Shown piece by piece: positions 15,174 through 36,444 of a stretch of DNA of 64,000 bases (position 1 is the first letter of the stretch; each line of letters begins with the position of its first letter). The position numbers and the translations under genes were made by a program. The DNA is from Anaeromyxobacter paludicola. Its GTDB lineage: Bacteria; Myxococcota; Myxococcia; Myxococcales; Anaeromyxobacteraceae. The notes under the pieces were generated by a model, which saw only the letters and a list, made by a program, of their open reading frames with translations, did no database searches and was not told where the DNA came from. The stretch is from assembly GCF_023169965.1 (NCBI RefSeq), contig NZ_AP025592.1, positions 3,906,001-3,970,000 of the forward strand, in the 5' to 3' direction.

Positions 15174-18100
15174 AACTCGGCGGAGAGCGGGTCCTCCTCG
15201 AGCGGGATGAGGTCCTCGGGGCGCAGCGCGATGGCCCCGGGGGCGCGCTTCGGTGCCTCGCCGGCGGTGCTCCTCTTCCCCTCTCCCGCGGAGCGGGGGA
15301 GGGACAGGGAGGGGGTGAGCCCGCGGGGCAGGGCGGGCCGCCCCTCCCCGGCCCTCCCCGCGCGAGCGGGGAGGGAGCGCTGCGCCGAGCCCTCTCGCGC
15401 GGCCGCCCCGAGCCTGAACGCCCCGACCATGGCGGCGAGCTCCTCCGACTGCCCGGAGAGCTCGCTCGCCGCCGAGGACGACTCCTCGGAGCTGGCGGCG
15501 TTCTGCTGCGTCACCTTGTCCATCTCGGAGACCGCCTTGTGGAGCTGCTCGATCCCGGCCGACTGCTCCTTCGCGCCGGCGGCGATCTCGGCCACGATGT
15601 CGGTCACCTTCCCGATCCCGCCCACGATCTCGCCCAGCTTCGCCGAGACGTGGCGCGAGGTCTCGGCGCCCTGCGTGGCCTGCTTCACCGACTGCTGGAT
15701 GAGCGCCTCGGTCTTCTGCGCCGCCTCCTTGCTCCGGAGCGCGAGCGAGCGGACCTCCTCGGCGACGACCGCGAACCCGCGCCCGGCCTCGCCGGCCCGC
15801 GCCGCCTCCACCGCCGCGTTGAGGGCGAGCAGGTTGGTCTGGAAGGCGATCTCGTTGATGTCGCGGATGATGGCGCTCGTGCCCTCGGCCGAGGCCCGGA
15901 TCTGATCCATCGCCACCTGCATCTGCGACATCGCCGCCGCGCCCTCGGTGGCCTGGCCCCTCGCGCTCGTCGCGAGCGCGCTCGCCTGGCCGGCGTGCTC
16001 GGCGCTGCTGCGCGCCATCGCCGCCACCGAGTCGAGGCTGGCGGTGGTCTCCTCGAGCGAGGCCGCCTGCTCCGAGGCGCCGCTCGCGACCGCCTGCGAG
16101 GACGACGCGATCTGGCTCGCCGCGGAGGACACCTGGCCCACCGACTGCGACACCTGCGAGAGCGCCTCGTCGAGCGCCTGGGCGGAGGCGTTGAGGGCCG
16201 TCTGCACGCGGGCGTGGTCGCCCTGGTAGTCGCCCTTCATCCGGGCGGTGAGGTCGCGCTCGGCGAGCCGCTCCAGCACCGCCGTGGCCTCGCCGATGGG
16301 CGCCAGCACCGCGTCGAGCGTGGCGTTCACGCCCTGGAGGGCCTCGCGGAAGGCCCCCTCGTGCTTCGTCACCTCGGCCCGCTCGGCGAGCCGGCCCTCC
16401 ACGGCCGCCCGCGACAGCGCCTTCGCGTCGGCCACGAGCGCAGCGACCGCCTCGACGCAGCGGTTGAGGCTCTGCTGCATCGCCACGATGTCGCCCTGCA
16501 CCGCGTTGGTGCGGAGCGGCGGGAGGTCGCCGTGCGAGATCCGCTCGCAGTAGCCGGCGACCACCCGGAACGGCTTCACGATCGCCTCGACCGCCCCGTT
16601 GACGCCCTCGAGCGTCTTGCGGAAGGCCCCCTCGTGCCGGGAGGCGTCGGCGCGCTGGTCGAGCTGGCCGGCGGCGGCCGCGGCGGCGAGGGCGTCGGCG
16701 TCCCGCACCAGGGCCCCGAGCGCCCCGACGCAGCGGTTGAGGCTCTCGCGGATCGCCTGGAAGTCGCCCTTCGCCACGCCGGTGCGGAGCGGCGGGATCT
16801 CGCCGTGCGAGATCCGGTCGCAGTAGTCGGCGACCACCCGGAGCGGGGTGACGAGCGCGTCCACGGTGTCGTTCAGGCCCTGCACCACGGCGCGGAAGTC
16901 TCCGTGGTGGCGGGAGAGGTCGGCGCGGGTGGCGAGCCGGCCCTCCACCGCCGCCTCCGCCAGCGCGCGCGAGTCGGCGACCAGGGCGCGGACCGCCGCG
17001 GTGCAGGCGTTGAGGTTCCGCTTGAGCGCGTCGAAGTCGCCCGGCCAGGGCTCGGCGATGGGCGGCGGCACGTCGCCCTGCGCGAGCCGGTCCACGCAGC
17101 GGGCCGCCTGCTCCACCGGCGCGATCACCGCGTCGAGCGTGGCGTTCACGCCCTCCACCACCTTGCGGAAGTCGCCCTGGTGGCGCGCGGCGTCGGCGCG
17201 GGTGGCGAGCCGGCCCTCCACCGCCGCCGCCGAGAGGCGGGTGGCGTCGGCGACCAGCGCGTTCACCGCGTCGATGCAGCGGTTGAGGCTGTCCTTGATG
17301 GCGTTGAAGTCGCCGCGGTAGGCCTCCTCGATGCGGGGCGGCACGTCGCCCCGCGAGATCCGGTCCACGCACGCGGCCGTCATCTCGATGGGGTGGACGA
17401 AGGCGTCCATCATCTCGTTCATGCCCTCGACGATGGGCCGGAACTCGAGCGAGACCGCCGCCGCGTCGCCGCGGACGGCGAGCTCGCCGCGCCCCACCGC
17501 CTCGCGGAGCCGGCGGGCCTCGGCGCCGAGGAAGCGGAGCGGCCGGGTGATGGTGCGGGCGAGGGTGAAGCCGGCGGCGAGGGCGGCGAGGACCGCCAGC
17601 AGGGACACGCCGAGGATGGTGAGGAGCTGGGCGCGCCGCTCGCGCAGCGCCGCCTCGCGCTGCTGCGCCACGAGGGCGTCGATGTCGTCCACGTAGTTGC
17701 CGGTGCCGACCACCCAGCCGAAGGGGGCGAAGCCGAGGGTGTAGGCGCGCTTGGGCGCGGCGGCGCCGCCGCCCTTGCGCGGGAAGGCGTAGTCGGTGAA
17801 GCCGCCGCCGGCGCGGCCGTTCCGGAGGAACTCGCGGACCATCGCGTAGCCGTTGGCGTCGGTCTTGTCGAGGCGCCCCTTCCCCTCGTCCGGCCGGCCC
17901 AGGAGCACCACGTTCACGCCGTCGTAGGTGTCGGCCCAGAAGTAGCCTTCCTTGTCGTAGCGGAGCCCGCGCAGGAGGTCCGCCCCGAGGGCGCGGGCCT
18001 GGGGCTCGGTGAGCTCGCCGCGCCCGGCGCGGTCGGAGATCGCCTGCAGCATGGAGACGGCGCTCTCCACCTGGAGCCGCGCGTTCCGGTCGAAGTTGGC

Positions 18101-33564: not shown

Positions 33565-34419
33565 TCAGGGGGCGCGCGCCACCACGTAGCCTACCTCGTA
33601 GCTCGCCGGGATGGCACCGTCCCTGGAAAAGCCCGCGCGGTAGCGGTCCATCATGTCGAGCATGAGGCGGCGGCCGGCGAGGCCGGAGGCCCGCGGCACG
33701 GAGATCGGGAGGCCTTCTCCCTCTCCCGCGCAGCGGGGGAGGGCCGGGGAGGGGGCGAGCGGCGCCGCGTTGCCCGCCCCGATGCGGCGGAGCGCGCGGA
33801 GCAGGTCGGCCACGTCCGGGTGCCACTCCACGTGGACCGCCCCGCGCTCCTCGAGCACCGCGAGGCCGGCGTCGCGCAGGGCGGCGGCGACCTCGGCCCG
33901 CGAGAAGAAGCGGTGCGTCGGGTCGGGCGCGCCGCGCGCGGCCGCGGCGGCGCGATACGAGCCGCGCAGCTCGTGGAGCGTCTCCCCGCAGAAGAGCGCC
34001 ACGGCGAGGAGGCCGCCCGGGGCGAGCACCCGCCGGGCCTCGGCGAAGGCGAGGTCGAGCCGGGTGAGCCACTGCAGCGCCGAGCTCGAGAGGTAGACGT
34101 CGAACGCCCCCGACCGGAACGGCAGCCGCTCCGCGTCGGCCACCGCGAGCCGCGCGCGCGGGCAGCGGGCCCGGGCGGCGGCGGCCATGCCGGGGGCGAG
34201 GTCCACGCCGGCGGCGAGGGCGCTCTCCCCGGCGAGCCGGGCCAGGAGCGCCCCGGTCCCGGCGCCGACGTCGAGGAGGCGGGGCCGCGCGGGGAGGTGG
34301 GGCGCGGCGAGCGCGAGGAGCTCGTCCCGGGCCGCCTCCTGCACCCGGGCCGCCTCGTCGTAGGCCGCCGCGCCGCGATCGAACGCGGCCCGGACGCGCG
34401 CCTTGTCCACCTGGTTCAC
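33565..34419 (-). CDS. bioC: Malonyl-[acyl-carrier protein] O-methyltransferase BioC
   Basis: BioC methylates the malonyl group on ACP with SAM, hiding the free carboxyl so that fatty acid synthesis can build pimelate for biotin. The 284-residue protein starts DKARVRAAFDRGAAAYDE, matching BioC, then has the SAM motif LLDVGAGTGALL and the LSSSALQWL stretch characteristic of the family. The GTG at 34419 overlaps the bioH stop as GTGA. A 37-base copy of the dispersed repeat (33721-33755) adds about a dozen residues (APSPALPRCAGEGEG) in the C-terminal half. The pairing with bioH and the BirA-like operator upstream support the assignment. Confidence 0.9.
   Translation of the reverse strand: MNQVDKARVRAAFDRGAAAYDEAARVQEAARDELLALAAPHLPARPRLLDVGAGTGALLARLAGESALAAGVDLAPGMAAAARARCPRARLAVADAERLPFRSGAFDVYLSSSALQWLTRLDLAFAEARRVLAPGGLLAVALFCGETLHELRGSYRAAAAARGAPDPTHRFFSRAEVAAALRDAGLAVLEERGAVHVEWHPDVADLLRALRRIGAGNAAPLAPSPALPRCAGEGEGLPISVPRASGLAGRRLMLDMMDRYRAGFSRDGAIPASYEVGYVVARAP
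33721..33755. repeat. Dispersed 37-base G/C repeat inside bioC
   Basis: This copy starts CTCTCCCGCGCAGCGGGGGA and continues with GGGCCGGGGAGGGGGCG. It differs from the copies at 15281-15318 and 44994-45030 at only a few positions. It is in frame in bioC and adds a Pro/Gly/Glu-rich stretch between conserved parts of the protein. Confidence 0.75.
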
Positions 34420-35222
34420 GGGAGCTCCCCCGCGAAGCGCGCCAGCGCCCGGGCGCACTCGGCCGGGCGGGTGACGAAGGGCGCGTGCCCGGCGCCGGCG
34501 AGGCGCACGAGCCGGGCGCGGGGGAGCCGCTCGGCGAGGTAGGCGCCCGCGCCGGGCGGGCAGACCGCGTCGGCGTCGCCGTGCAGCACGAGCGCCGGCG
34601 CCGCCACGCCGGCGAGGTCGCCGCGCAGGTCCACCCGGAGCAGCTGGTCGAGGCCGGCGAGCGCGGCCGCCTCGGACGGCGGGGGCGCCGCGAGGAGCAG
34701 CTCCTCCGAGCGCCGGCGAACCGCCTCGGGCGACGCCTCCCCGGGCGCGAACATCCCGTCGAAGAAGCGCGAGAGGACGCGGGCCGGGTCGCGGCGGAAG
34801 CGCAGCGCCATCGCCTCCACCGTGCTCGCGGGGAGCCCGCACTCCCACCCCTCGGCCCGGGTGAAGCGGGGCGTGCCGGCGAGGAGGGCGAGCCCGGCGA
34901 GGCGCGGCGCCAGCCGGGGGACGGCGGCGAGCGCCACCTGGGCCCCGAGCGACCAGCCGGCGAGGAGCGCCTCGCGCAGCTCGAGCCGCTCGAAGAGCGC
35001 GACCAGGTCGGCGACGTGGTCCTCGAGCGTGGCGGAGGGGGCGGCCGGGGAGCGGCCGTGCCCGCGCAGGTCGGGGGCGATGACCCGGAGCCCTTCGCCG
35101 AGCGCCGCCCGGAGCGGCGAGAAGACGAGCGACGACAGCCCCCAGCCGTGGAGCAGCACCAGCGGACGGCCCGCTCCGGAGGGCGCCACGGCCAGCGCGA
35201 TGGGCGAGGGCTCGACCGGCAT
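34416..35222 (-). CDS. bioH: Pimeloyl-[acyl-carrier protein] methyl ester esterase BioH
   Basis: BioH removes the methyl group from pimeloyl-ACP methyl ester, ending the BioC-started pathway. The 268-residue alpha/beta hydrolase has LVLLHGWGLSSLVF at about 21-34, DLRGHGRSP, the nucleophile elbow GWSLG with Ser91, an acid in HGDADAVCPP and the catalytic His in GAGHAPF. HGWGLSS is typical of BioH. It overlaps bioC and lies just behind a likely BirA operator. No bioF, bioA, bioD or bioB is in the window. A general esterase role cannot be excluded, but the context makes BioH the best call. Confidence 0.88.
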   Translation of the reverse strand: MPVEPSPIALAVAPSGAGRPLVLLHGWGLSSLVFSPLRAALGEGLRVIAPDLRGHGRSPAAPSATLEDHVADLVALFERLELREALLAGWSLGAQVALAAVPRLAPRLAGLALLAGTPRFTRAEGWECGLPASTVEAMALRFRRDPARVLSRFFDGMFAPGEASPEAVRRRSEELLLAAPPPSEAAALAGLDQLLRVDLRGDLAGVAAPALVLHGDADAVCPPGAGAYLAERLPRARLVRLAGAGHAPFVTRPAECARALARFAGELP

Positions 35223-35252
35223 CGCTGGTCCGAGTACCGCAGCCGCCCGGGG

Positions 35253-35284
35253 TCGTCAACCGGCGGGCGCATCCGGGTTGACGA
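35253..35284 (-). promoter_or_regulatory. Probable BirA operator upstream of bioH-bioC
   Basis: A perfect 9-base inverted repeat, TCGTCAACC and GGTTGACGA, is separated by 14 bases. It matches the layout of proteobacterial BirA operators (TTGTAAACC-N14/15-GGTTTACAA) with a GC-shifted half-site. It lies 31 bases upstream of the bioH ATG, and its left arm read on the minus strand supplies a TTGACG that could be the -35 box. Confidence 0.7.
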
Positions 35285-35318
35285 TGCTGGCCGGCGCGGG
35301 GGCGCGCCGGAAGACGAA

Positions 35319-35350
35319 GACCCCCGGCCCAGGGGCGTGGGCCGGGGGTC
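35319..35350. terminator. Intrinsic-type terminator after cydAB
   Basis: This is a perfect 13-base stem (GACCCCCGGCCCA and its complement) with a 6-base loop. On the minus strand it follows the cydB stop by 32 bases and continues into TCTTCGTCTTCC, a partly T-rich tract. It separates cydAB from the biotin operon on the same strand. Confidence 0.75.
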
Positions 35351-35382
35351 TCCTGGGGGGCTGCGAGGCCCGGGACCGGTCT

Positions 35383-36444
35383 CTAGCGCGCGGCGCGGGC
35401 GCCGGCCCGCTCGGCGGCCGAGGGCTCCTCGCCGTAGGCGTGGCCCGGCCGCACCTTGCCCCGGAAGATCCGGTAGACGGCCGCGGTGTAGGCGAGCACG
35501 AGCGGCATGCCGAGGAGCGCGATGACCAGCATCACGCCCTGCGTCTTGGGCGAGGAGGCGGAGTTGTAGATGTCGAGGCTGTTCTCGAGGCCGCCCAGCG
35601 ACGGGACGAGCCGCGGGAAGAGGCTCACCGCCGCGAGGAAGATGGCGGAGACGATCACCACCGACGAGGCGAGGAAGGCCGTGCCGCTCCGGCCCGCGCG
35701 GGTGGCGCGCGGGATGGTGGCGAGCCCGCCGGCGAGCAGCAGGAGGAGGCCCCAGAAGGCCGGGTTGGAGGTCGCCTTCTCGAACAGGAACGGCGAGACG
35801 AAGAAGGTGGCCACCGTCGCGAGCGCGTAGACGGCGAGGAAGGCGATCCAGGCCCCCACCGCGACCTTGCCCATCCGCTCGTGGAGGGCGCCCTCGCTCT
35901 TCATCCGGAGGTAGAGCGCGCCGTGCATGACGAACATGGCGAGGCTCACGAGCCCGATCAGCACCGCGTACGGGTTGAGCAGGCCGAGGAAGCTCCCGGC
36001 CCACTCGTGCTCCGGCGTGAGCGGCACGCCGCGCAGGACGTTGCCGACGGCGACGCCGAAGAGGATGGCCGGCAGGAGGCTGCCCACGCCGAAGGCCCAG
36101 TCGAAGGCGCGGCGCCAGGCCGGCGCCTCGACGTTGTGCCGGAACTCCATCGCCACCGCGCGGAGGATGAGCGCGACGAGGAGGAGCATGAGGGCGAGGT
36201 AGTAGCCGCTGAAGATGGTGGCGTAGACCACCGGGAAGGCGGCGAAGAGGGCGCCGCCGCCGGTGAGGAGCCACACCTCGTTGCCGTCCCAGACCGGGCC
36301 GATGGCGCCGACGTGGACGTCGCGCTCGGCGTCGCTCTTCGCGAACAGGTGGAGGATGCCGACGCCGAGGTCGAAGCCGTCGAGGACCGCGTAGCCGGAG
36401 ATGAGGACGCCGACGAGGAGGAACCAGGTGGTGTTGAGGTCCAT
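35383..36444 (-). CDS. cydB: Cytochrome bd quinol oxidase subunit II (CydB)
   Basis: CydB is the second membrane subunit of the bd-type terminal oxidase, which reduces oxygen with quinol electrons at high affinity and without proton pumping. The 353-residue protein has about eight to nine hydrophobic segments. The family start LNTTWFLLVGVLISGYAVLDGFDLGVGIL is clear in outline (DLNTTWFLLVGVL, then GYAVLDGFDLGVG), followed by GPVWDGNEVWLL and RAVAMEFRHN. It lies 13 bases after cydA and ends before a strong terminator. It probably works under low oxygen. Confidence 0.96.
   Translation of the reverse strand: MDLNTTWFLLVGVLISGYAVLDGFDLGVGILHLFAKSDAERDVHVGAIGPVWDGNEVWLLTGGGALFAAFPVVYATIFSGYYLALMLLLVALILRAVAMEFRHNVEAPAWRRAFDWAFGVGSLLPAILFGVAVGNVLRGVPLTPEHEWAGSFLGLLNPYAVLIGLVSLAMFVMHGALYLRMKSEGALHERMGKVAVGAWIAFLAVYALATVATFFVSPFLFEKATSNPAFWGLLLLLAGGLATIPRATRAGRSGTAFLASSVVIVSAIFLAAVSLFPRLVPSLGGLENSLDIYNSASSPKTQGVMLVIALLGMPLVLAYTAAVYRIFRGKVRPGHAYGEEPSAAERAGARAAR

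Follow-up and report, generated by a model that had tools for sequence, protein, structure and literature searches.

A predicted BirA operator at the promoter of a free-standing bioH-bioC pair in Anaeromyxobacter and its recurrence before biotin genes

A perfect inverted repeat immediately before a bioH-bioC pair in Anaeromyxobacter paludicola raises the question of what recognizes this element, as DNA or as RNA, and how the synthesis of biotin would be controlled through it. The repeat, the genes around it and its counterparts in related genomes were therefore analyzed together.

The palindrome and its neighboring genes

The window, i.e., the whole analyzed stretch of 64,000 nucleotides, harbored at 35253–35284 a perfect 9-14-9 inverted repeat, TCGTCAACC-N14-GGTTGACGA, annotated without strand as a putative BirA operator on the basis of sequence and of repeated occurrence before biotin genes. 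Both its exact position and its arms were as described in an earlier sequence-only reading of this DNA. A gap of 30 bases separates the palindrome from bioH (ATG at 35222, minus strand). The pattern matched only once in the window at up to three mismatches (mean in shuffles, 0.03), and at N14 it was unique at the same tolerance in the whole 4.59 Mb genome. In this GC-rich window, 23 pairs of perfectly inverted 9-base arms, some overlapping, are separated by 13–17 bases, and such repeats are thus not uncommon; the one at 35253–35284 was alone among them in having an arm with fewer than seven G/C of nine. What makes the palindrome significant is its sequence, found repeatedly before biotin genes, and not its symmetry by itself. 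The sequence of TCGTCAACC-N14-GGTTGACGA agreed with the BirA consensus TTGTAAACC-N14/15-GGTTTACAA, or close variants of it, as given by Rodionov et al. 2004 (PMC545781).

The two genes behind the palindrome are presumably bioH (34416..35222, minus strand; alignment A1) and bioC, encoding a malonyl-ACP O-methyltransferase of 284 aa (33565..34419, minus strand), with the GTG start of bioC overlapping the bioH stop. The best NCBIfam matches were TIGR01738 for BioH (146.9 bits against a cut-off of 206.95; E 7.6e-43) and TIGR02072 for BioC (137.7 bits against a cut-off of 184.95; E 5.4e-40). In addition, the GWSLG and GHAPF motifs were present in the BioH protein, and S91, D218, and H246, presumably the catalytic triad by comparison with E. 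coli BioH, were invariant across 12 aligned sequences. Both proteins scored below the curated equivalog cut-offs, and their names rest jointly on best match, synteny, motifs, and regulation. The isolated bioH-bioC pair of the sequence-only reading was accordingly retained as a free-standing pair with these best-match families, but at scores under the equivalog cut-offs.

A palindromic REP-like repeat, in frame with the coding sequence, was observed in bioC at about residue 227 (window 33719–33741, minus strand), and a second copy with one mismatch was located at 15279–15301 (minus strand). Most BioC matches of the family outside the genus ended their alignment at about residue 221, shortly before this repeat. 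In another genome (G009:C70:83312-83982; L208/L209), the bioC match was split into two pieces, and a frameshift is possible.

The genes cydA and cydB lie upstream of bioHC in the same direction. Folding revealed a terminator-like hairpin after cydB (35316..35353, minus strand) with a strong 16-bp stem and few T in its tail, which probably insulates bioHC from cydAB; therefore, bioHC probably needs a promoter of its own.

Recurrence before biotin genes and agreement with BirA

Two genome-wide site searches were conducted, one with the 9-14-9 pattern (up to three mismatches at N14) and one with the core pattern GTCAACC-N13..17-GGTTGAC. The core pattern revealed two sites in the genome, each before a biotin operon. 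The second site, with an N15 spacer (C1:4107144-4107172), directly precedes the two-gene operon bioB-bioF (bioB, 360.1 bits with a cut-off of 225; bioF, 474.7 bits with a cut-off of 426.45). No operator, not even a poor one, was detected across a 16 kb region at the central biotin genes bioA-bioD (C1:3290375-3292200) or around the birA locus, and the regulon found thus comprises two operons. The expectation that the motif would occur before other biotin genes was consequently confirmed at bioB-bioF but not at bioA-bioD or birA. The BirA of this genome (G000:C1:390588-391301) carries the N-terminal helix-turn-helix that the sequence-only reading had named as a point to verify (HTH_11, 45.2 bits with a cut-off of 25), together with both ligase domains. 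Neither of the outcomes that this reading had set out as disproof was obtained, and in its essentials the interpretation was supported. Its residues 20–327 of 331 aligned with the PDB BirA entries 4wf2 and 1bia, presumably E. coli BirA. Against the NCBIfam repressor-domain model TIGR00122 it scored 54.9 bits, below the cut-off of 70.

The core pattern was further searched for in 117 genomes of the order, 24 belonging to the family and 93 lying outside it. A total of 53 core sites were detected in 44 of the 117 genomes, with 47 of them preceding bioB, bioH, bioY, or bioF. The family accounted for 28 sites in 21 of its 24 genomes (13 before bioH, 13 before bioB, one before bioY, and one before the gene for a LivK-like binding protein in G002), and the other 93 genomes for 25 sites (19 before bioB, one before bioF, and five without a biotin match, i.e., with no match to the A. 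paludicola BioB, BioF, BioH, or BioC within the surrounding 10–11 kb). All 47 biotin-linked sites had N14 or N15 spacers, and 88 of their 94 arms had the outer T; of the five non-biotin sites, four had N13 or N16, and the outer T was present in none of the 10 arms. The G002 site resembled the biotin-linked sites in spacing and arms. The reversed control pattern gave no site in the 24 family genomes (vs 28 real sites) and 20 sites in the 93 genomes outside the family, close to the 25 real ones, so that outside the family the evidence is the location of the sites before bioB. Within the genus, an N14-only search recovered the core in one of the two genomes and the N13–17 search in both. Three genomes of a single genus (G046, G086, and G065; L071, L155, and L156) had one and the same core palindrome with an N16 spacer and without a BioB, BioF, BioH, or BioC match in the vicinity; it may be the site of a different regulator.

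Considered by gene, bioH was found in 13 of the 24 family genomes (E<=1e-30), with the operator just before it in all 13; bioC was present in 12 of these, and in the 13th (G039) bioH is cut by a contig end. Neither gene was found in the other 11 family genomes at the thresholds used (g2, g6, most of g5, and G067; several assemblies are incomplete), and bioB was present in seven of the eight of these that were searched with profiles. Above the cut-off, bioB was detected in 22 of 26 relatives, and the operator occurred at 14/14 family bioB loci. Six family bioB operators (G004, G008, G009, G011, G013, and G015) had GTAAACC as one arm, the published consensus BirA half-site (PMC545781). Among the eight non-family genomes with bioB above the cut-off, imperfect sites preceded it in G016 and G025, and no site was found in G019–G023 in the scan around bioB. 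In G018, bioB is cut by a contig end, and an imperfect site lies on a second contig (L144) beside a bioB fragment. A weight-matrix scan of 20 bioA, 20 bioD, and 26 birA loci (~1.5 kb on each side) detected no operator. In G016, bioA and bioD follow bioF and its operator at a distance of a few kb and in the same orientation, and therefore may share that operator. The operator was present at one of six scanned bioY loci (G067, L063 1370-1981; PF02632) and absent from the five other family bioY loci. Among the best 80 of 470 BioH-like loci in other genomes, the relaxed motif was found at six, including the Anaeromyxobacter sp. PSR-1 record (L252), and not at 74; in five deltaproteobacterial BioH loci (L210–L214), a site lay ~1.2 kb before bioH.

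Operator presence also tracked the DNA-binding part of BirA, whose N-terminus was read in 25 genomes (a 26th, G012, is a fragment and was left out). The recognition helix [ST]R[AT]AVWK was intact in 18 of the 25, and all 18 genomes had an operator, with only imperfect ones in four (G011, G015, G018, and G025); as 15 of the 18 belong to one family, the independent events are few. In the seven genomes without the helix (G017 and G019–G024), neither the core pattern nor, where bioB is present, the scan of its surroundings yielded a site, although the absence says little in G017 and G024, both of which are without bioB. Of these seven BirA proteins, four had no HTH domain and two scored under the HTH_11 cut-off; the remaining one (G023) passed it at 35.2 bits with an altered recognition helix and no site found.

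The G002 site is the sole core operator of a genome estimated at 95% completeness, and has perfect arms and an N15 spacer. It is located at L148 6816-6848, before a gene for a LivK-like periplasmic binding protein (L148 6930-8114; Peripla_BP_6, 151.4 bits). The bioB search in G002 gave a single 20-bit match and nothing above the cut-off; bioD, bioH, bioC, and bioY were not found in it, and bioA was found only below the cut-off. Two other genes stand between radA and an ilvA-like gene, where G007 has bioB. Moreover, the BirA of G002 retains its HTH. No operator was found at nine homologues of the binding protein (eight in relatives and one paralogue in G002). The operator points to a candidate biotin-uptake protein, and a part for it in biotin scavenging is a guess; if true, the protein would be a biotin uptake component of the ABC type, distinct from BioY. 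The combined proposal that in this family the pimelate-making pair is under direct and separate BirA control, through an operator overlapping the -35 of a leaderless transcript, and that the G002 operator controls a LivK-type protein for scavenging biotin or a precursor, is considered rather unlikely.

Predicted promoter overlap, alternative readings, and the proposed switch

Read on the gene strand, the bioH-proximal arm of the palindrome includes TTGACG, a putative -35 hexamer (35254..35259, minus strand). The family alignment suggested a candidate -10, GGTACT (35233..35238, minus strand), with a TG upstream at 35240–35241, or alternatively the register TACTCG (35231–35236, minus strand). 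This -10 is weak in the present genome and TATCCT-like in several relatives, and a strict sigma-70 scan of 35150–35450 found no consensus promoter. The presence of TTGACG is no promoter test because TTGAC belongs to the motif, and 34 family operators (28 core and six imperfect) were aligned on their target genes. A -10-like box with a score of at least 4 was found 15–18 bases after TTGAC in 32/34 operators, vs 2.4% of shuffles; these boxes are of the TATCCT, TAGGGT, or TAAGGT kinds, often with an upstream TG. For the claim that the arm doubles as a -35 box, independent support comes from the correctly spaced -10-like boxes of the relatives; the overlap itself is to some extent inherent in the motif, and the box is poor here. 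In 27/34 operators, the box ended 7–19 bases upstream of the first open start codon; for six bioB rows, the script chose an overlapping GTG with an ATG a few bases further on, and in the G002 row the start codon was more distant. The short distance from -10 to start suggests leaderless or nearly leaderless mRNAs.

Three other readings of the palindrome were weighed. With 23 comparable inverted repeats in the window, a palindrome arising by chance in GC-rich DNA might be suspected, yet chance would not put 47 of the order's 53 core sites in front of biotin genes or leave the reversed control empty in the family; these comparative data refuted the explanation, and its probability is practically negligible. 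Hardly more credible is a role in RNA, as a leader hairpin or an attenuator. The strand can fold (z -1.68), but the palindrome is upstream of the predicted start site, and bioH transcripts would thus lack it. Moreover, the loops of the family bioH sites differ in both length and sequence (38% mean identity of the spacers over 36 pairs of equal length) while the arms are constant, as for protein binding.

A different dimeric repressor of biotin genes, comparable to BioR in alphaproteobacteria, is slightly more conceivable but still very improbable. Other biotin regulators do exist, such as the GntR-family BioR (PMC5343134); against such a protein, the half-site and the N14/15 spacing are those of the BirA signal already published (PMC545781), the arms are interchangeable with GTAAACC in relatives, and operator presence follows the intact BirA recognition helix over the 25 genomes. 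The repeat is almost certainly a BirA docking site at the promoter that serves two genes of biotin synthesis, as judged from comparative sequence evidence. It is highly probable that it acts as a BirA operator overlapping the predicted bioH-bioC -35, within a biotin-dependent switch shared with bioB-bioF. The operator, its recurrence before biotin genes, its agreement with the BirA recognition helix, and the promoter-like spacing were all obtained by computation.

BirA binding, biotin dependence, repression, and leaderless transcription are predictions, with the BirA cycle modeled on E. coli (PMC5438404). When biotin is plentiful, BirA carrying biotinyl-5'-AMP would dimerize, and its N-terminal winged-helix domains would bind both half-sites, covering the -35 and excluding RNA polymerase from the bioH-bioC promoter. 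An excess of unbiotinylated acceptor protein would consume the adenylate and cause the BirA dimer to dissociate, after which transcription of bioHC would yield an mRNA with little or no leader. The bioB-bioF operon would be under the same switch. BirA could in this way gate pimeloyl-ACP synthesis (BioC and BioH), BioF, and the last step (BioB), with no operator found before bioA-bioD.

Comparison with known BirA systems

Within the family, the motif is a search tool of high genomic specificity, with 27/28 core sites before known biotin genes, and it turns regulation into a means of finding further biotin genes, which is useful because 11/24 family genomes showed neither bioH nor bioC at the thresholds used. 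BirA regulons have been reported in gamma- and deltaproteobacteria, with Myxococcales unmentioned in the main text of that study (PMC5343134), and Myxococcus is mentioned once, in the background, of PMC545781. Among the titles and abstract openings of mainly non-subscription papers, no BirA regulon of Anaeromyxobacter or other myxobacteria was found, and literature on leaderless transcripts and Myxococcus xanthus gave nothing on Anaeromyxobacteraceae.

The switch is of a well-known kind, traced here through a bacterial family. The closest counterparts are the Geobacter/Desulfuromonas BirA regulons, in which TTGTcAACC-N14-GGTTgACgA precedes G. sulfurreducens bioF with the same spacing (PMC545781); the GC-shifted BirA-type half-site of the sequence-only reading fits this known form, but is not new, since this form was already published for Geobacter. 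Those regulons likewise have one or two operators per genome, with birA located apart and unregulated outside Desulfovibrio, but their listed sites precede bioB, bioF, or bioW, whereas here bioH comes first behind the operator (PMC545781). E. coli also has a bifunctional BirA with an N-terminal HTH. It differs in having one operator between divergent bio transcripts, with bioH unlinked and not regulated by BirA (PMC5438404). In operons with bioH and bioC such as that of Pseudomonas aeruginosa, bioH as a rule immediately precedes bioC, as here (Cao et al. 2017, PMC5438404), and the BioH protein was present under biotin limitation but undetectable with excess biotin (PMC5438404); however, that bioH-bioC pair lies inside a larger biotin operon, whereas the present pair is free-standing with its own putative operator. 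The less usual point is therefore a free-standing bioH behind its own predicted BirA operator, in contrast with E. coli bioH and Francisella bioJ, the known free-standing esterase genes, which according to Cao et al. 2017 are outside biotin operon control (PMC5438404).
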